Below, piece after piece: positions 1-15,659 of a stretch of 64,000 nt of DNA. The DNA comes from Fructilactobacillus ixorae. Its GTDB lineage: Bacteria > Bacillota > Bacilli > Lactobacillales > Lactobacillaceae. The number at the start of each line of letters is the position of its first letter. Positions within the stretch are counted from its first letter, which is position 1. A model generated the notes under the pieces. It searched no databases. It was not told where the DNA came from and saw only the letters and a list, made by a program, of their open reading frames with translations. The position numbers were made by a program, and so were the translations under genes. Location: positions 62,001 through 126,000 of the forward strand of contig NZ_CP097478.1 in the NCBI RefSeq assembly GCF_024029915.1, in the 5' to 3' direction.

Positions 1-528
1 CGGCCCGAAGCGTTTGTCGAACAGATCATCACCACTTTGAAGACGGAAACGGCCGCGGCCAACTTACCCTTACCTGCGGTCTGGATTGAACCAGGGCGTT
101 CGATTGCTGGACCGGCCGGGGTGAGCCTGTACCGGGTTGGTTCGCAAAAAACAATTCCAGCGGTTCGCAAGTACGTGGCAGTTGATGGCGGGATGGGTGA
201 CAACATCCGTCCCGCGCTCTATGGGGCTGCTTACGAAGCGGTCGCTGCTGACAACGTGGCACCGACCGAAACTGAAGTGGTAACGGTCGCCGGGAAGTAC
301 TGTGAATCAGGGGACATCTTAGTAAAGGATGCCACGCTCCCGCCCGTGCAAGCTGGGGACGTGATTGCGGTATTGGCCACGGGAGCCTACGGGTACTCAA
401 TGGCATCTAACTATAACCGGAATCCCCGGCCCGCGGTTGTTTTCGTTGAAAATGGCAGCGCCCAAGTCGTGGTTAAGCGGGAAACCCTAGCTGATTTAAC
501 CCGCCTCGACGTGAAACTAAGTGATTAA
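1..528 (+). CDS. lysA: Diaminopimelate decarboxylase, C-terminal part (5' end outside window)
   Basis: The frame is open from base 1, so the gene begins upstream of the window. The enzyme makes L-lysine by PLP-dependent decarboxylation of meso-diaminopimelate in the cytoplasm. The visible part is the C-terminal beta-barrel of the fold III decarboxylases. It carries the conserved EPGRSI segment, then the C-E-S-GD and GAYGYSM-NYN segments that complete the active site. The stop lies 38 bases before dapD and no terminator intervenes, so it is the first visible gene of the lysine/DAP operon. Family assignment is firm; only the length is unknown. Confidence 0.93.
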   Translation, partial: RPEAFVEQIITTLKTETAAANLPLPAVWIEPGRSIAGPAGVSLYRVGSQKTIPAVRKYVAVDGGMGDNIRPALYGAAYEAVAADNVAPTETEVVTVAGKYCESGDILVKDATLPPVQAGDVIAVLATGAYGYSMASNYNRNPRPAVVFVENGSAQVVVKRETLADLTRLDVKLSD

Positions 529-6242: not shown

Positions 6243-6881
6243 ATGTTAACGATTAAAAACCTTAAGAAATCGTATGGCGATCAGGTGGTCTTTCAAAAGC
6301 TCAACATTACCGTTCCAGACGGGGGCATCCTGACCGTGGTGGGACCTTCTGGAATTGGGAAAACCACCTTTTTAAATATTTTAGCCGGGTTAATTGCGGC
6401 CGATGCCGGGACCATTACCTTGAACGGCAAACAACTGGAACTGAGTCCCAACCGGAAGGGTACAGACGTTGGGGTCATCTTTCAGGACTTCAACCTGTTT
6501 CCCCAGTACACGGTCGCTGAGAACGTCACCCTAGCTCCCAAAGTGGTTAAAAAGGAAAAGAAGGCGCAGTACCAGGATCAGTGCCAAGCATTGCTGGACG
6601 AGTTGGACTTAACTAGTAAGCAGGACGCCTATCCGTTCCAACTCTCGGGAGGCCAGAAGCAACGGGTTGCGATTGCCCGGGCCCTGGCTATGAAACCAGG
6701 GGTGTTGGCTTACGATGAACCGACGTCCGGGCTTGATGAAGCCTCGACAAAGCGGGTAACGGAAGTGATCCAGAAGTTACAACAACGCGGGGTGACCCAG
6801 ATCGTGGTGACTCACGATTTACCCTTTGCCCACAGCTTGAACGGCCAGGTTTTGGACTTTGGCACGGACGTTGACCGTTAG
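6243..6881 (+). CDS. Polar amino acid ABC transporter ATP-binding protein
   Basis: Energises the amino acid importer. The 212-residue ATPase has Walker A GPSGIGKTT near residue 34, the Q-loop IFQDFNLFP, the signature LSGGQKQRVAIARAL near 134, Walker B VLAYDEPTSGLD and the switch His in VTHD. It is slightly shorter than the roughly 240 residues usual for GlnQ/HisP, the C-terminal tail being reduced. It begins 12 bases after the permease stop behind an AGGAGGG site and belongs to the same transcript. Confidence 0.93.
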   Translation: MLTIKNLKKSYGDQVVFQKLNITVPDGGILTVVGPSGIGKTTFLNILAGLIAADAGTITLNGKQLELSPNRKGTDVGVIFQDFNLFPQYTVAENVTLAPKVVKKEKKAQYQDQCQALLDELDLTSKQDAYPFQLSGGQKQRVAIARALAMKPGVLAYDEPTSGLDEASTKRVTEVIQKLQQRGVTQIVVTHDLPFAHSLNGQVLDFGTDVDR

Positions 6882-9384: not shown

Positions 9385-12354
9385 TTACTGGCGTTTCTGT
9401 AACTTACCGAACCCGAAGAGTCCAGCTAGGGTCGTTAGTAGCATTCCAAGGAAGCCAAGGAAGTGATTTTGGCTTTGTCCCGTTTGCGGTAACTGCGTTT
9501 GCGGTTGAGCGGCTTTTGTTGGTTGTGAGGCAACCTTGGCGTACACGGCGAAGGTCTGCCCCGCTTTAGTTTGAAATTCTATGAACTGGTAGCCTGGAAT
9601 CGTTGGGGCTTGGGGATGCTTCGGATCCGTTGGGTAAGCGGGTCCTACTGGATTCCCCTGTTCATCGATTGGTTGAATGGTAATTTGATCATCTTTGGTG
9701 ACCGGGGTGTCGTCCTTGGTGTAAACGGCAAATGTCTTACCATCCTTGGTTTCAAAGTGATTAAACGTGTAGCCCGGAATCGTTGGAGCCTCGGGATGCT
9801 TCGGATCCGTTGGGTAAGCAGGTCCTACGGGGGTCCCATTCTTATCGATTGGTTGTACAATCAAGGGGTTCTGGGTGTAGGTGACTGTTTGGTCACGGTT
9901 TTGGCCGAGCGTGGCAGTCATGGAAACCTGGGCTTGATCCGGTGTGTAACCATCAATCGTCGGCGAAGCAATTGTAACGTCAGGACTATCGACGGGGGTC
10001 CAATCACTGTAGGTTACTTGACCAGTTACCATGTCAACTGTAACTGTCCGAGTGAATTTAACCGTTCGGGTAGAATCTGGGGCAGCTTGACGACCATCGT
10101 CATATTTGTAATGAACGGTAATCGTACTTTCCGACTCTAAGTCTTCAGCAGCAGTCTTTTCGGGCCATTTGGGTCCGTCAGGATTGTTTGGATCAATGGG
10201 TTGACCCGGGTTTCCAGGCTTGTCTGGCGTTCCTGTAACTAAATCATGGGTTACGTGAATTTCATAAGTTTGTTCCGCATCAGGGCCGAAGGTCGTTGGC
10301 ACGTTGTTATTGCCAATCACATAACCCTTGTTTTTCAAAGCCTGCAGGTCAACTGGGTTAGTTAATTGCTCCCCAGTTTTACCCGTAAGCGGGTGAGTTT
10401 CAATGGTTTGACCAGTTGTGTCGTCAATGACCTTTACGGTTGCTTTGACGTCGTTGGCTTGGTAAGTAACCGTTTGGTCATTGTTTTGTCCAGCCGTGGC
10501 CGTTACGGAAATCTGACCTTGATCCGGCGTGTAGCCAGAGATTGCTGGGGAATCAACGGTCACGTTAGTGCTTTCAACTGGGGTCCAGTCACCATAGGTA
10601 ACTTGTCCAGTAACCGCATCTACCGTAGCCGTCCGGGTAAAGTGTACCGTTCGAGTAGCATCTGGAGCCGCTTGGCGACCATCTGCATACTTGTAATGAA
10701 CGGTAATGGTACTTTCCGTTTTCAAATCTTCGGCAGTGGTTTTTTCGGGCCATTTCGGACTATTAGGATCACTAGGATCAATTGGTTGCCCGGGAACACC
10801 CGGATTATCGGGGGTAATGGTTTTAATGATGTGTTTTAATCCGATAGTGAAAAGCTGATTTCCGTTACTATCAATGGGGGAACCTTCACCAATTTTGTAA
10901 ATCAAGTTGGGATTGGTTAGTTCATAGCCACTTGGAATTCCGGTTTTAATTTGATTGGTGATATCAGTTCCTAAATCGAGATAACCAAGGTCATTGGTCG
11001 TTCCGACCTGGACATTATTATTATCGTTATCAACATAGATAACATGCGTGTTAACGGTTTGAGCCCAAACATATTCATATGGATGCGGTTGGCCATCTAA
11101 TAATCCCTCGGCCGGAATCCAGGCCCCCTGTGGATTTAATTCTGAGCCAGTGCCAACTAATTGCCAACTAGGACCAGCGACTTTCTTAGTGGTGCCAGGA
11201 ATCGTTTGCCCAGTAGTTGGATTTACAAGTCCGGCATCGGAGGAGAGAATGGTATCTGCTCCAAGTTTGATTTCCCAAAGATTAGGCATGTTATTAAACA
11301 TATTAGTCATCCCATTATTGGAGAAATCAGTTTTTCTAGTGTTAAACATGGAAATATCTAAATGAGTTAGACTAGTTGCACCATCAAACATGTTGTTAAA
11401 GTACGTAGCATTAGCAGTATTCCAACCGGCAAAGTTAACGCTAGTTAATGAACTACAGTTAGCAAACATTGCTCCAAATGCTCCGCGCCAGGAATCTAAA
11501 TCGGTCCCAACTTTAGAAACATCCCAGCCTGACAAGTCTAAAGTCTTTAAAGCAGTATCATCAGCAAACATGCCCGTCATATTGGTTACATCTGAAACAT
11601 CCAGGTTACTAATATTAGTAATATCTTCTAGATTTTTTAACCCTGCAAAAACATATGAGGCAACACCAATACTATTAGGTTCTTTGGTAATGCCTACTTT
11701 TCCGTTGAAAATAATGTGTTGAACATCTTTAAAGGGGATGGTACTAGTTTTAGTAGCACGATCTCCGGTGGCAATTTGACCACCGCCTAAAAGAGTTAGC
11801 GTTTTTGTAGCATCATCGTAGGTATATTGAGCCGTTCCCCACGTTCCGGTTTGGATTGCAGCCGGCGTAGGGGCATTCGCTGCTAAATTAGTAGTGATAT
11901 TAGCAACTTGTGGTTGATTTGTGGTTGCATTTTGTTCAGGCTGCGTTACTTTTACCTGGTTCATTGAAATTTGATTCGAATTTGGTGTTTCAGAATTAAT
12001 TTCTTGTGAATTAGCAGTACTTTCTAGCTGATTGGTACTATTCATTGAAAATGAAGTCGTTGATTGAGTTGTTTGTGAAGTGGCATTCTTTTCATTATTA
12101 TTTGCTACTTCAGTGGCAGAAGTGCTTGTTGTGGTTGACGTAGGTTCGGTTGCAAAGCTTGGCTCACTAGGAGTCTGGGGATTAACTGACTTATTTGCAA
12201 TCGTTGTTGACACTGGTTGCGCGGTTGACGATTGATAAGCATCAGTTGTAGTTACGCTGGGTTTGCTAGTTTCTTGATTTGCTTGACTTTGATTAGAAGT
12301 GGGATAAGTGGGTTTACCCAGATTTCCCATTATTAACGTAATAAAGGGAAGCAT
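9385..12354 (-). CDS. LPXTG mucin-binding/BspA-like surface protein, 'tail' without signal peptide (phase OFF)
   Basis: The frame has 989 codons. Residues 19-130 are Ser/Thr/Gln-rich. Then follow a BspA-type leucine-rich DUF285 region (about 230-370; repeats like LDVSDVTNMTGMF and LDLSGWDVSKV) and two mucin-binding type repeats (each with TVHYKY-DGRQAAPD and SGYTPDQ-like motifs). Two about 60-residue C-terminal repeats (GPAYPTDPKHP, PTIPGY) come next, and the protein ends with LPQTG, a membrane helix and a basic tail for sortase. It lacks any signal peptide, and no ribosome site precedes the nominal ATG at 12354. The codons for GKPTYP at residues 13-18 lie in a 20-bp inverted repeat shared with the head gene at 13213. 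Inversion of the intervening DNA would give a secreted protein of about 1048 residues. An intact long frame without its start suggests recent or frequent switching. Confidence 0.85.
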   Translation of the reverse strand: MLPFITLIMGNLGKPTYPTSNQSQANQETSKPSVTTTDAYQSSTAQPVSTTIANKSVNPQTPSEPSFATEPTSTTTSTSATEVANNNEKNATSQTTQSTTSFSMNSTNQLESTANSQEINSETPNSNQISMNQVKVTQPEQNATTNQPQVANITTNLAANAPTPAAIQTGTWGTAQYTYDDATKTLTLLGGGQIATGDRATKTSTIPFKDVQHIIFNGKVGITKEPNSIGVASYVFAGLKNLEDITNISNLDVSDVTNMTGMFADDTALKTLDLSGWDVSKVGTDLDSWRGAFGAMFANCSSLTSVNFAGWNTANATYFNNMFDGATSLTHLDISMFNTRKTDFSNNGMTNMFNNMPNLWEIKLGADTILSSDAGLVNPTTGQTIPGTTKKVAGPSWQLVGTGSELNPQGAWIPAEGLLDGQPHPYEYVWAQTVNTHVIYVDNDNNNVQVGTTNDLGYLDLGTDITNQIKTGIPSGYELTNPNLIYKIGEGSPIDSNGNQLFTIGLKHIIKTITPDNPGVPGQPIDPSDPNSPKWPEKTTAEDLKTESTITVHYKYADGRQAAPDATRTVHFTRTATVDAVTGQVTYGDWTPVESTNVTVDSPAISGYTPDQGQISVTATAGQNNDQTVTYQANDVKATVKVIDDTTGQTIETHPLTGKTGEQLTNPVDLQALKNKGYVIGNNNVPTTFGPDAEQTYEIHVTHDLVTGTPDKPGNPGQPIDPNNPDGPKWPEKTAAEDLESESTITVHYKYDDGRQAAPDSTRTVKFTRTVTVDMVTGQVTYSDWTPVDSPDVTIASPTIDGYTPDQAQVSMTATLGQNRDQTVTYTQNPLIVQPIDKNGTPVGPAYPTDPKHPEAPTIPGYTFNHFETKDGKTFAVYTKDDTPVTKDDQITIQPIDEQGNPVGPAYPTDPKHPQAPTIPGYQFIEFQTKAGQTFAVYAKVASQPTKAAQPQTQLPQTGQSQNHFLGFLGMLLTTLAGLFGFGKLQKRQ
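12300..12319 (-). repeat. Left inverted-repeat recombination site (IRL)
   Basis: Read on the - strand it is GGGTAAACCCACTTATCCCA, identical over 20 bases to 13425-13444 on the + strand. Flanking bases differ on both sides. The repeat is partly symmetric (GGG..AA...TT..CCC), as serine-recombinase crossover sites usually are. It encodes GKPTYP in frame with the LPXTG tail. Confidence 0.88.
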
Positions 12355-12451
12355 GGTGATATACTTTAGAATAGGTCTTAAGGCCCCATTTAGTGATACT
12401 TTCTACTTTGGGAAAATAGGATGGATAACAATTAAATTTTAGGAGTAAAAG

Positions 12452-13063
12452 ATGAAATTTGGTTATGCACGAGTTAGCTCAAATAGTCAAAATTTAAGTC
12501 GCCAAATTAAAGCTTTACGGCAAAATGGATGTGAATACATTTATCAAGAAAAAATATCGGGAAAAGATTTAGCACGTCCCAAGTTAATGGAATTATTGGA
12601 TACCATCCACGTTGGAGATGAAGTAGTTGTCCTCGACTTAGATCGGTTAGGTAGAAATAATAATGATATTACAATCGTGATGAATCAAATCCGCGAAAAA
12701 CAAGCAGTGTTTAAAGTACTTTCCTTGCCATCATTTGATGGAATCTCTGATCCCAATTTAAAGGCCTTGTTAAATAATTTGATTATTGAAATTTATAAAT
12801 ATCAGGCTGAAGCGGAACGAATTAAGATTAGAGAGCGACAGCGACAAGGAATTGAAATTGCTAAAAAAAAGGGAGTTTACAAGGGTGGCGTCAGTAAGTA
12901 TTCTTTACGTTCGAAAAATCCGCAGGGCAGACTGGTTGCCAAAGAAATGATAAAGATGTTTCGCGAGGGAATTGGCAACAGTGAAATCGCAAGAACCTTA
13001 GGGATTAGTCGTAAAACGGTATTTTTAAAACGAAAGCAGTATATAGATAATCACACCTTTTAG
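12452..13063 (+). CDS. Serine recombinase (DNA invertase/resolvase family)
   Basis: The 203-residue protein is a small serine recombinase of the Hin/Gin/Tn3-resolvase type. The nucleophile is Ser9 in YARVSS; the catalytic DRLGRN segment lies at 64-69; the long E-helix follows near 105-140; a C-terminal helix-turn-helix (EIARTLGISRKTVF, about 178-195) binds the site. Length is typical. The ribosome site AGGAG is well placed. It lies entirely between two perfect 20-bp inverted repeats, together with the signal-peptide head gene, so it is the obvious enzyme for inverting this segment. It would itself change orientation. Action on other sites in the genome cannot be excluded. Confidence 0.92.
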   Translation: MKFGYARVSSNSQNLSRQIKALRQNGCEYIYQEKISGKDLARPKLMELLDTIHVGDEVVVLDLDRLGRNNNDITIVMNQIREKQAVFKVLSLPSFDGISDPNLKALLNNLIIEIYKYQAEAERIKIRERQRQGIEIAKKKGVYKGGVSKYSLRSKNPQGRLVAKEMIKMFREGIGNSEIARTLGISRKTVFLKRKQYIDNHTF

Positions 13064-13116
13064 AATCCACTGATAAAATAATTTAATCTTTACAGTCGTT
13101 TTATGATTATCACCAT

Positions 13117-13144
13117 TTGTTTTCATTTATAAATGTATTATAAT
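13117..13144 (+). promoter_or_regulatory. Promoter of the head gene inside the invertible segment
   Basis: TTGTTT (13117-13122) and TATAAT (13139-13144) are 16 bases apart and would start transcription near 13151. Because the promoter lies inside the inverted repeats, it travels with the head and would drive the LPXTG tail after inversion. Confidence 0.55.
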
Positions 13145-13150
13145 TATCAT

Positions 13151-13173
13151 ATACAAATAGATAATATTTGTAT
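13151..13173. repeat. Short inverted repeat in the head gene leader
   Basis: ATACAAATA and TATTTGTAT are separated by five bases (GATAA). It starts at the expected transcription start, so it is either an operator or a 5' leader hairpin. Purpose unknown. Confidence 0.5.
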
Positions 13174-13212
13174 GCTAACTTTTATTTTTGATTTCCTATA
13201 AGGAGGAAGAAA

Positions 13213-13458
13213 ATGGAAAACAAAATTCATTACAAGATGTATAAAGCTGGTAAAATCTGGCTGTTTGCGTCAATTTCAACTGTTGCTTTGGGAATTGGGT
13301 TATTTGGAACTCCTAATGCAAGTAAGGTTCATGCTGATGTTTCACCGGTCACAACTAATCAGGAACCCGGGACTACTTCAACAGAACCAAAATCACCTAA
13401 TTCTGTTACTAATGAGAGTAGTCAGGGTAAACCCACTTATCCCAACAAAAACCTCTAA
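13213..13458 (+). CDS. Signal-peptide 'head' of phase-variable surface protein (stub in present orientation)
   Basis: The 81-residue product starts with a KxYKxGKxW-type signal peptide (HYKMYKAGKIW at 6-16, hydrophobic stretch to about 34, likely cleavage near VHA-D). A Thr/Ser/Pro/Asn-rich segment follows and then GKPTYP at 72-77. In the present orientation only NKNL and a stop follow the recombination repeat, so a short secreted peptide with no anchor is made. The ribosome site AAGGAGG is strong. If the 12300-13444 segment inverts, residues 1-77 join in frame to residue 19 of the LPXTG protein. The signal type is normally linked to surface adhesins exported by accessory or canonical Sec, and the GH70 enzyme in this window carries the same type. 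Confidence 0.85.
   Translation: MENKIHYKMYKAGKIWLFASISTVALGIGLFGTPNASKVHADVSPVTTNQEPGTTSTEPKSPNSVTNESSQGKPTYPNKNL
13425..13444 (+). repeat. Right inverted-repeat recombination site (IRR)
   Basis: Identical to the left site in inverse orientation; 1106 bases lie between the two. It encodes GKPTYP (after a GG from the previous codon) in frame with the head. Crossover anywhere in the repeat keeps the reading frame. Confidence 0.88.
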
Positions 13459-13869
13459 ATTAATACATAATTTGCATACCAGCTTCTAGCAATCACCACG
13501 GAGTTGGAGGAATTTCAAACAATTAAAATTGAACACGCACATTTTGGATGTTAAAAGTTAGCGGAAGTTAAATCATGATTATGAATGTTTTTTGTTAATG
13601 GTGGGATTTAATTAATTAACACACCTTGAATATCCTAATGGGAATTTTAAATTGAGGCTGATTAGTGCTTTAAAAGTAATACTTCCCCAATTAGGAAACA
13701 TTTATTAAAAAATGGGGTTTCATAAGAACTGGATAAAGTTTAATTTTGGGTTCTGACCACCGTCACTTAGTAACGGCGGTCAGAACCCTTTTTGTATAAT
13801 TAGTGCAAATAAAAAAGAACATATTGCTCGTCACCGATAGATTCGCCCGTCAAGAAGGAGTTAATGATC
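13459..13869. other. Intergenic flank right of the invertible segment, no long gene
   Basis: No convincing gene. The sequence is AT-rich with stops in all frames. A short open stretch after the head stop (around 13480-13525, with SNHHGVGGISNN) may be the remains of an alternative tail, but it is too short to judge. It ends in a terminator and a short A-rich stretch. Confidence 0.5.
13748..13794 (+). terminator. Strong rho-independent terminator
   Basis: GGGTTCTGACC-CCGT pairs with ACGG-GGTCAGAACCC, followed by TTTTT. It would end transcripts entering from the head promoter in the OFF orientation. Confidence 0.85.
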
Positions 13870-14016
13870 ATGAATGAAATAACAAACAAAGAGATATTAG
13901 GTTGTGCAGAGCCTAACATCATCGTTGCTGATATTACGAAAGCAAGCACACTTGTTAAAGTAAATGGTGTTAGTAAAAATGCTGGGTCATTAATTCTAGC
14001 TTACAAATTAAGATGA
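13870..14016 (+). CDS. Small ORF of unknown function (48 residues)
   Basis: An ATG 7 bases after AAGGAG opens 48 codons. The product is mildly acidic at first, then Lys/Val-rich (TKASTLVKVNGVSKNAG). I do not recognise a family. Its TGA overlaps the ATG of the next small frame (ATGA), a pattern of translational coupling. It may be the start of a decayed larger gene, since KLR is followed after the stop by a further plausible reading (KIAEIAGIRML) in the same frame. Confidence 0.35.
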   Translation: MNEITNKEILGCAEPNIIVADITKASTLVKVNGVSKNAGSLILAYKLR

Positions 14017-14129
14017 AAAATTGCGGAGATTGCTGGAATAAGAATGCTGTAAACTTATTACCCGCAGGCTTAGCAGGGAGAGTCCACATTGTTAACATTG
14101 CCTATACAACCTTAAACAAAAAGCGATAG
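14013..14129 (+). CDS. Small ORF overlapping the previous one (38 residues)
   Basis: Opens at the ATGA overlap and encodes 38 residues (starts MKNCGDCWNKNAV, ends in a basic NKKR). There is no own ribosome site beyond coupling, and its 3' end lies within the gnd terminator hairpin. Two Cys are close together. Function unknown; a chance frame is quite possible. Confidence 0.22.
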   Translation: MKNCGDCWNKNAVNLLPAGLAGRVHIVNIAYTTLNKKR

Positions 14130-14151
14130 AATCCGTTAAGGATTCTATCGC
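14123..14151 (-). terminator. Terminator of the zwf-gnd operon
   Basis: GCGATAGAATCC pairs perfectly with GGATTCTATCGC (loop 5). On the - strand it is followed by TTTTTGTTT. It lies about 75 bases beyond the gnd stop. Confidence 0.85.
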
Positions 14152-14228
14152 CTAAGGAAGACTCATTTATTAAATTATTTACTTATAGGACTAATTGATA
14201 AAGAACTTTTTCAGCTTGGCGCTGATGG

Positions 14229-15659
14229 TTATTGTTCTTTGTACCATGGATAGTGGAAGCTTCCTGGACGGTCAACCCGTTCGTAAGTGTGAGCACCGAA
14301 GTAGTCACGTTGAGCTTGTAACAGGTTAGCAGGAAGAATTTCAGCCCGGTAAGAATCAAAGTAGGAAACAGCACCGGCCAATGATGGAACTGGAATTCCG
14401 TATTCAGTTGCGAATGCCAGAATTTGACGAGCTGCATCTTGGTACTTGTTGGCGATGTCACCGAAGAATGGATCCATTAACAAGTTGTTCAAGTCAGGGG
14501 TCTTTTCAAAGGCTTTCGTAATTTCGTCTAAGAATTGAGCCCGGATGATACAACCTTCACGCCAAATTTGGGCTAATTCGCCGTACTTTAAGTTCCAGTT
14601 GTGACTGTTAGAAGCCATCCGCATTTGTTCAAATCCTTGCGCATAACTCATAATCTTACCGAAGTAGAGGGCTTGACGCATGTCTTCAACGATATCACTA
14701 CCGTTGTAAGCTGGTTTGTTAGCTGGTCCGTGTAATACCTTGGCAGCGGCCATCCGTTCGTCTTTCAACATTGAAACGAAGCGGGCGTAAACTGATTCGG
14801 TAATTACGGATTGTGGAGCACCTTCATCTAAGGCATCCTCTGAAGACCACTTACCAGTTCCTTTGTTAGCACCCCGGTCGAGAATCATGTCAACGATTGG
14901 CTTGCTCTTGTCAGCGCCTAAGTCGTCTTTACGAGTTAAGATGTCAGCCGTAATTTCGATTAGGTAACTGTTCAATTCACCCTTGTTCCAGTCGGCGAAG
15001 ATCTTAGCCAGGTCATCAACGGAGTATCCAGCGGCGTTTCTTAGGATGTTAAATGATTCGTCAATTAACTCTTCATCACCGTATTCGATTCCGTTGTGGA
15101 CCATCTTAACGTAGTGACCAGCACCATCAGGACCAATGTAAGCCACACATGGCTTGCCATCTTTCGCCTTTGCAGCAATTTTTTCCAAGATGGGAGCAAC
15201 CCGGTCATAAGCTTCTTTTTGACCACCAGGCATCAAGGAAGGACCTTCTAGGGCACCTAGTTCACCACCAGAAACTCCCATTCCGATAAAGTTAATTCCC
15301 GATTTAGCTAATTCCTTGTTCCGGGCAATCGTGTCGTGGAAGTTCGTGTTCCCACCATCGATTAACGTGTCACCCTTATCAAGTAATGGGAGAATTTCGT
15401 TAATGACGGCGTCGGTTGGAACACCAGCTTTCACCATTAATAAAATCGTCCGGGGAGCTTCAATGGAGTTCACGAAGTCCTTGATGTCGTATGAAGGAAT
15501 CAAGTTCTTGTCACCGTGATCTGCCATTACTTTTTCTGTTTTCGCAGCAGAACGGTTGTAGATGGCAACCGTGTAACCGCGGCTTTCGATGTTAAGGGCA
15601 AGGTTCTTACCCATAACGGCCATTCCAACAACTCCGATGTTTGCTTTCTTGTCAGCCAT
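14229..15659 (-). CDS. gnd: 6-phosphogluconate dehydrogenase, decarboxylating
   Basis: Oxidises 6-phosphogluconate to ribulose 5-phosphate, CO2 and NAD(P)H. The 476-residue product has the N-terminal [20 protein letters not shown]ossmann loop, the substrate segment [20 protein letters not shown] (catalytic Lys/His/Asn) and [16 protein letters not shown] chose the ATG at 15659 (MADKKANIG) because GGAAGG lies correctly before it; the frame extends 16 codons further upstream without support. It is downstream of zwf, 108 bases apart. In heterofermentative species the two enzymes carry the main flow of hexose into the phosphoketolase pathway. Confidence 0.95.

Follow-up and report, generated by a model that had tools for sequence, protein, structure and literature searches.

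In the genome of Fructilactobacillus ixorae, a small recombinase gene lies between a short open reading frame (ORF) that encodes a signal peptide and a long ORF on the opposite strand that encodes a protein with an LPXTG anchor, which raises the question of whether these two ORFs are separate genes or the two halves of one surface protein gene that can be joined by DNA inversion. The stretch analysed here, referred to as the window, comprises 64,000 nucleotides (assembly GCF_024029915.1, contig NZ_CP097478.1, positions 62,001 to 126,000), and a first-pass annotation of its sequence had described the arrangement as the OFF state of a switch operated by a Hin/Gin-type recombinase. Our analysis suggests that the locus is probably a self-contained on/off inversion switch of a likely adhesin, with the recombinase encoded inside the inverting segment, and that the arrangement, which is real, is most likely functional. 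The reading as the OFF state of a split head and tail is supported because the flanking repeats are unique and in phase, because they contain a core motif that recurs at related recombinase genes, and because two related recombinases (loci L147 and L151) lie between inverted sites as well. It is further supported by the corresponding locus of Fructilactobacillus myrtifloralis and by the purifying selection seen in the tail. The part of the earlier description that did not hold is the assignment of the recombinase to the Hin/Gin type.

Architecture and in-silico inversion of the predicted segment

The recombinase gene and the signal-peptide head are enclosed by inverted repeats at 12300-12322 and 13422-13444 (23 nt, 96% identity), which contain a perfect 20-bp core (12300-12319 and 13425-13444). 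This is the sole perfect inverted repeat of at least 20 bp with arms 0.1-5 kb apart in the window; eight first-order Markov shuffles served as a control and yielded zero or one 16-mer pair each, 20-mers being uncounted there. Within the whole 1.42-Mb genome, the 20-mer occurs in just these two copies when up to three mismatches are allowed, so that the repeats noticed in the first annotation proved to be unique in the window as well as in the genome. As had also been stated there, both repeats encode the peptide GKPTYP in one shared codon phase, whereby the right copy (13427-13444, plus strand) forms the end of the head and the left copy (12318-12301, minus strand) the start of the tail.

The head ORF (13213-13458, plus strand) encodes 81 amino acids, consisting of a KxYKxGKxW signal peptide (PF19258 in the Pfam search) and a short Ser/Thr-rich linker, and it ends, as described before, with GKPTYP followed by NKNL and a stop codon. 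It is preceded on the same strand by a ribosome-binding site, AAGGAGG (13200-13206), and by a candidate promoter, TTGTTT-16-TATAAT (13117-13144), which was recognised by eye. Of the head promoter that had been placed in the segment, the TATAAT box (13139-13144) is thus present, but the -35 box is too weak for the promoter scan, and the promoter stays a candidate. The scan itself is uninformative, since it returned nine sites against 7.8 expected. The tail (9385-12318, minus strand) comprises GKPTYP and 971 codons, encodes BspA/DUF285 and Muc_B2/MucBP domains and terminates in an LPQTG anchor. It is contained in an ORF of 989 codons (9385-12354, minus strand), for which the domain search returned BspA/DUF285, Muc_B2, MucBP and LPXTG domains and no KxYKxGKxW signal. 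No Shine-Dalgarno-like run is visible before the ATG at 12354 or the ATG at 12330, which agrees with the claim that the tail has neither a signal peptide nor a ribosome site of its own.

When the predicted inverting segment between the two central dinucleotides of the repeats (12316-13428, approximately 1.1 kb) was flipped in silico, head and tail were joined to a single unbroken ORF of 1048 amino acids (9385-12531 of the inverted window), just as had been predicted. The ORF carries the KxYKxGKxW head at its start and the LPQTG anchor at its end, its head-tail junction reads ...SSQGKPTYPTSNQSQ..., and the flipped arrangement is the only one in which this signal and an LPXTG anchor occur together in one protein. 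The recombinase gene (12452-13063, plus strand), which indeed lies within the segment, is left intact by the inversion. The flipped product is likely to be an adhesin that would be secreted and anchored to the cell wall.

In the switch that we propose, the recombinase would cut both sites at the central AA/TT dinucleotide and flip the segment. In the sequenced orientation (OFF), the head transcript would yield an 81-residue stub and the tail would be left without visible start signals. In the flipped orientation (ON), the promoter, the ribosome site and the KxYKxGKxW signal of the head would precede the BspA/MucBP/LPXTG tail, which would then be displayed at the surface. The strands would be exchanged within the AAA (Lys) codon of GKPTYP, so that the reading frame would be preserved.

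The recombinase and its predicted crossover site

The recombinase is a small serine recombinase of the Sin type with 203 amino acids, in which the nucleophile Ser9 as well as Arg7 are present and conserved in the alignment to Sin. In the Pfam search it was assigned to the Resolvase family (PF00239, E 1.6e-30), and the matches to HTH_7 and HTH_23 were slightly under the curated cut-off. Its closest solved structure is that of the plasmid resolvase Sin (2r0q, 141.7 bits, E 2.4e-40), whereas the best chain labelled as DNA-invertase reached 70.3 bits (E 2e-18) and gamma-delta 65.7 bits. The NCBIfam model of the invertase Mpi gave 45.3 bits against a cut-off of 272 bits, and the proposed membership in the Hin/Gin group was therefore rejected. 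None of the defence-system models matched the recombinase. Residues known to activate Sin were also rejected as an explanation for inversion: the recombinase has V at position 77, where I, L, V and T all occur among its relatives, and the window is therefore not exceptional in this respect.

The nearest named proteins (73-78%) belong to F. lindneri, F. frigidiflavus (two), F. cliffordii and F. carniphilus. The F. cliffordii gene is located between an LPXTG gene and a Fic-family gene on a plasmid that has conjugation genes and is typed as non-mobilizable by PLSDB, and two of the plasmid relatives of the recombinase adjoin replication and partition genes. The F. ixorae genome additionally contains two broken copies of related recombinase genes (G000:C1:244122-244695 and 1326683-1327256). 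Next to the first of them follows a gene whose product shares 84% identity with the Fic-family protein encoded on the F. cliffordii plasmid, and plasmid-derived islands are thus likely to be present in this genome.

The upstream regions of related recombinase genes (220 bp each) were compared for a shared motif in a set of 42 distinct sequences, which includes the window, from which five duplicates had been dropped and in which some rows are near relatives of each other. A core, GGGTNNACCC, was found with seven or eight of its eight fixed bases in 23 of the 42 regions (200 shuffled sets: mean 1.3, maximum 5 of 42) and with all eight bases in seven regions (shuffled: mean 0.055, maximum 1). It lies at -79 to -160 in the 23 matching regions, and the left core of the window lies at -142. 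Since this core recurs in 23 of the 42 upstream regions, the repeats look like the recombinase's own crossover site. The left repeat holds the full core GGGT-TT-ACCC with TT as its centre, and the surrounding 30 bp form an imperfect dyad, TGGGATAAGTGGGT-TT-ACCCAGATTTCCCA, which is symmetric at 11 of 14 positions and has the 20-bp repeat as its first 20 bp. The left site is thus better read as a 30-bp dyad (12300-12329) than as a 20-bp repeat. Between this 30-mer and the right site, 25 of 30 positions agree (best match per shuffled window 18-21, n = 20). We regard 12300-12329 as the predicted crossover site and 13415-13444, with its central AA at 13429-13430, as a predicted inverted copy, which is itself poorly symmetric. 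A further stretch within the coding sequence of the tail (10188-10217) matches the left site at 22 of 30 positions and has a full core with TG as the centre; this is probably a coincidence caused by the PGQPIDP motif of the tail.

For the question of whether other recombinases of this kind are flanked by inverted sites, 67 related loci, duplicates among them, were scanned for perfect inverted repeats of at least 14 bp that span the recombinase gene, and 15 places were re-examined with longer flanks, where some repeat was found in five. Two loci, L147 (17-bp arms) and L151 (15-bp arms), show tight perfect inverted sites around the recombinase gene with the motif T-CT-ACC, and both recombinase genes adjoin sortase genes. 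At L148, which is also adjacent to a sortase gene, a core-like site precedes the recombinase gene, and any inverted counterpart on the downstream side has at best a diverged sequence. Among the closest relatives, the best inverted match to a site was 21 of 30 (F. carniphilus), which is inside the shuffle range. For L044, one of the two broken copies, the analysis covered a search for repeats.

The locus in F. myrtifloralis and the weighing of explanations

F. myrtifloralis is the closest of the genomes compared: its flanking DNA is 94-95% identical on both sides of the locus, and its gnd protein is 99% identical to that of F. ixorae, compared to 80-96% in eight other genomes of the genus. Its locus, flanked by the same neighbours, carries two intact divergent genes for proteins with a KxYKxGKxW signal and an LPXTG anchor, gene A (left, minus strand) and gene B (right, plus strand); the protein P0002 of this species is a contiguous relative of the predicted fusion. 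A search of this genome gave no recombinase of this kind at E 1e-30 or better and no close copy of the site, the best match having 6 mismatches of 21. In four of the eight other genomes (G001, G002, G005 and G006), the ORF lists contain no adhesin gene at the same place. The window head shares 90% identity with gene A over 87 bp but has the opposite direction. The BspA part of the tail is B-like, with 29.5% identity to A there, and the C-terminal part together with the 3' flank matches that of A with 82% DNA identity. From these matches it follows that head and tail derive from the same kind of gene, which is whole elsewhere. The first-pass annotation had reasoned that a contiguous gene without the repeats in a relative would point to a one-off breakage. 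Such genes do occur at the species level in F. myrtifloralis, but they are not decisive, because an intact divergent pair would be expected of an ancestral source just as much as of a breakage. Likewise, the comparison leaves a site-specific inversion unproven, since the same mosaic might have arisen through a single homologous inversion between A and B. We infer that a plasmid resolvase was the origin of the recombinase, which then took over a locus of two divergent adhesin genes.

The tail contains no stop over 977 codons. The ratio of nonsynonymous to synonymous substitution rates (dN/dS) of its C-terminal 244 codons is 0.105 against A and 0.128 against B, and that of the BspA domain is 0.141 against B, with synonymous sites near saturation there; A against B gives 0.169. 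As judged from these ratios, the disconnected tail has been under purifying selection, which does not imply that it still is. The small genome also holds three SecA2-like genes (G000:C1:1262245, 431529 and 381992), two of which exceed the family cut-off, and we count them as support for the switch reading.

As an extension of this reading, it might be that the segment once lay between two tails, that inversion chose one of them, and that the right tail has been lost from a remnant that still flips. We consider this history rather unlikely, but it is compatible with the explanation that we prefer, so that the probabilities of the two overlap. It would fit the two divergent genes of F. myrtifloralis and the relic of a repeated element (13742-14204) that falls into the interval of the second, right-hand adhesin gene of that species. 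On the other hand, no remnant of a second tail was recognised in 13445-14205, and both the recombinase and any close copy of its site are missing from F. myrtifloralis. The relic is presumably IS-like; its parts 13742-14053 and 14113-14204 match other places in the genome, and in better-preserved relatives there the two matched parts are about 1.1 kb apart, the middle being missing here. There was no phage match, and the two plasmid matches of the region 13000-14300 cover the signal-peptide region only.

More clearly unlikely is the explanation that the locus is a relic of homologous recombination between A and B. The two divergent adhesin genes of F. myrtifloralis (L114, 7473-15057) share C-terminal sequence in inverted orientation, and homologous recombination could therefore flip or mix them. 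In this case the 5' halves would have been flipped, deletions and an IS-like insertion would have removed one head and one tail, and the recombinase would be a stranded plasmid gene, with no flipping today. One homologous inversion would explain both the reversed direction of the A-type head and the composition of the tail, which is B-like in front but matches A in its rear part and 3' flank, and the repeated-element relic in the right flank as well as the two broken recombinase copies of the genome would agree with such a history. However, it leaves unexplained why a perfect 20-bp in-phase inverted repeat is placed precisely where the head ends and where the tail begins, and why this repeat matches the core upstream of related recombinase genes; moreover, all three ORFs are unbroken and the dN/dS of the tail is 0.10-0.14. 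That the recombinase merely resolves or regulates itself at the left site, with the right copy a by-product and the adhesin silent, is highly improbable although two of its plasmid relatives adjoin replication and partition genes, as would be expected for a plasmid resolvase, and the regulatory sites of Sin disfavour inversion (PMC2764113), since two inverted chromosomal sites offer nothing to resolve and two related recombinases likewise lie between inverted sites.

For the preferred reading as an inversion switch, we infer that the enzyme inverts rather than resolves and that the DNA flips in living cells. Several observations weigh against this. No read, strain or contig in the flipped form was seen, each locus protein being known from one contig, with one genome per species. 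In wild-type Sin, resolution is promoted by regulatory sites that reportedly prevent inversion (PMC2764113). The right site is weak on its inner half; its AA centre is not among the two best dyads, and the best dyad of this stretch reaches 8 of 14 positions at another centre, compared to 11 of 14 for the left site. A scan for half-sites of accessory sites gave a best value of 10 of 14, and at least 10 is also reached in 34 of 200 shuffles. No spanning repeat of at least 14 bp is present in 60 of the 67 related loci, and among the seven loci that have one, a core-like site occurs in one only, L076 (identical to L147). By eye, the sites of L147 fit GGGTNNACCC in five of eight bases and those of L151 in six and seven of eight. 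For the recombinases of F. lindneri, F. carniphilus and the F. cliffordii plasmid (75-78% identical) and for the broken copy L043, the 16-19 kb searched did not contain a convincing second copy of the respective site in inverted orientation. Finally, a recent permanent disconnection of the tail would be invisible to dN/dS, because the divergence over which it averages predates the species split.

Comparison with known inversion systems and related loci

Beyond the single locus, we tentatively suggest that a plasmid resolvase turned invertase may use its own promoter-proximal crossover site as the junction of an LPXTG adhesin, and that this case may be the coding-fusion member of an unrecognised group of Sin-type surface-display cassettes of Lactobacillaceae that flank themselves, others of which would flip beside sortase genes. 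If the proposed switch holds true, a 1.1-kb cassette with the recombinase inside would suffice for clonal switching of an adhesin without leaving a scar in the protein, and a fusion-type adhesin switch would be added to those of the lactobacilli. It would also show how a relative of an inversion-blocked resolvase can be made to invert, whereby topological control in serine recombinases would become testable with two short sites and one protein of 203 residues. For annotators it would mean that a signal-peptide stub and a nearby headless LPXTG gene can be one gene.

Crossover sites inside coding sequence are known from the Gin and Cin tail-fibre switches of phages Mu and P1, where a serine recombinase swaps alternative 3' ends; these invertases depend on Fis and belong to another branch. 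Here, in contrast, the 5' head would move, and one of the two states has no full product. The closest logic is that of the vsa locus of Mycoplasma pulmonis, in which inversion joins a promoter, a ribosome site and the 5' end of an ORF to silent 3' ends of surface protein genes, and a vsa-like inversion has also been suggested for mba/UU172 of Ureaplasma (PMC3047005). The F. ixorae locus shares with it the mobile 5' head with a candidate promoter, ribosome site and signal peptide, as well as coding repeats in phase with a silent tail. Several alternative tails, as in vsa, are not present, the 20-mer repeat occurring only twice in the genome. Several phase-variable loci of mycoplasmas use tyrosine recombinases of the XerC/D type in wall-less hosts (PMC3047005), whereas here a serine recombinase lies inside the segment and there is one tail with an LPXTG anchor. 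The use of a coding repeat as a protein junction, which had been regarded as new, is thus known in its logic from vsa, and no such case was found for lactobacilli among the papers listed. What is new here is the recombinase type, the LPXTG target and the host group; gene-fusing inversion as such is not.

With regard to the enzyme, Sin exchanges strands at the centre of its crossover site with 2-nt overhangs, and the beta recombinase uses Sin-like sites (PMC2428073); the latter is reported to invert as well as to resolve, according to titles cited in PMC8493755. The reaction of Sin takes place on two res sites of 86 bp in direct orientation and involves HU as well as a head-to-tail site II (PMC2764113, PMC2428073), in contrast to the two inverted sites, the coding junction and the absence of a recognised accessory site in the window. 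Among surface protein loci, plasmid pLPX of Apilactobacillus kunkeei resembles the window in that an LPXTG gene adjoins a serine recombinase gene and its authors suggest phase variation. By its description, to which the comparison is limited, it differs in that no split gene, repeats or fusion are mentioned (PMC9648514). The msa locus of Lactiplantibacillus plantarum likewise shows an inversion before an adhesin operon in a lactobacillus, but there the promoter region inverts, and the available passages describe neither a head-tail fusion nor an internal recombinase (PMC8493755). In cwpV of Clostridioides difficile, inverted repeats and a recombinase control a large cell-wall protein; its 195-bp segment, however, has no promoter or coding sequence, and the OFF state is proposed to act through a terminator (PMC2784873). 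A literature search for Fructilactobacillus, recombinase and adhesin together found no report, and among the matches listed, as judged by titles, beginnings of abstracts and passages, there was no Sin-type head-tail LPXTG fusion in lactobacilli.

Further split heads were sought among the best matches to KxYKxGKxW heads in 151 genomes of the family. Besides the window's own, the matches listed included seven frames shorter than 220 amino acids, five of which are located no more than 0.5 kb from the end of a contig; the internal short frames at L133 and L136 have no recombinase in their ORF lists and no suitable repeats. In the protein database, the window's own head stub was the only one of its kind.

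Some minor observations concern the related recombinase loci. In the cassettes of L151 (7454-8246) and L147 (2599-3355), the Sin-type recombinase gene is the sole gene between the sites. The best promoter-like match of L151 (10 of 12) is located inside the segment and directed away from the sortase gene, towards which it would point after a flip; promoter matches at this locus are no commoner than in shuffles. At L147, the neighbouring sortase gene (1776-2418) consists of two overlapping ORFs, of which the downstream one alone has a sortase domain match. At L041 (F. carniphilus), a full core (6460-6469) lies upstream of an LPXTG gene that is itself located just upstream of the recombinase gene, an order that the insertion of an adhesin gene between the site and the recombinase would produce.

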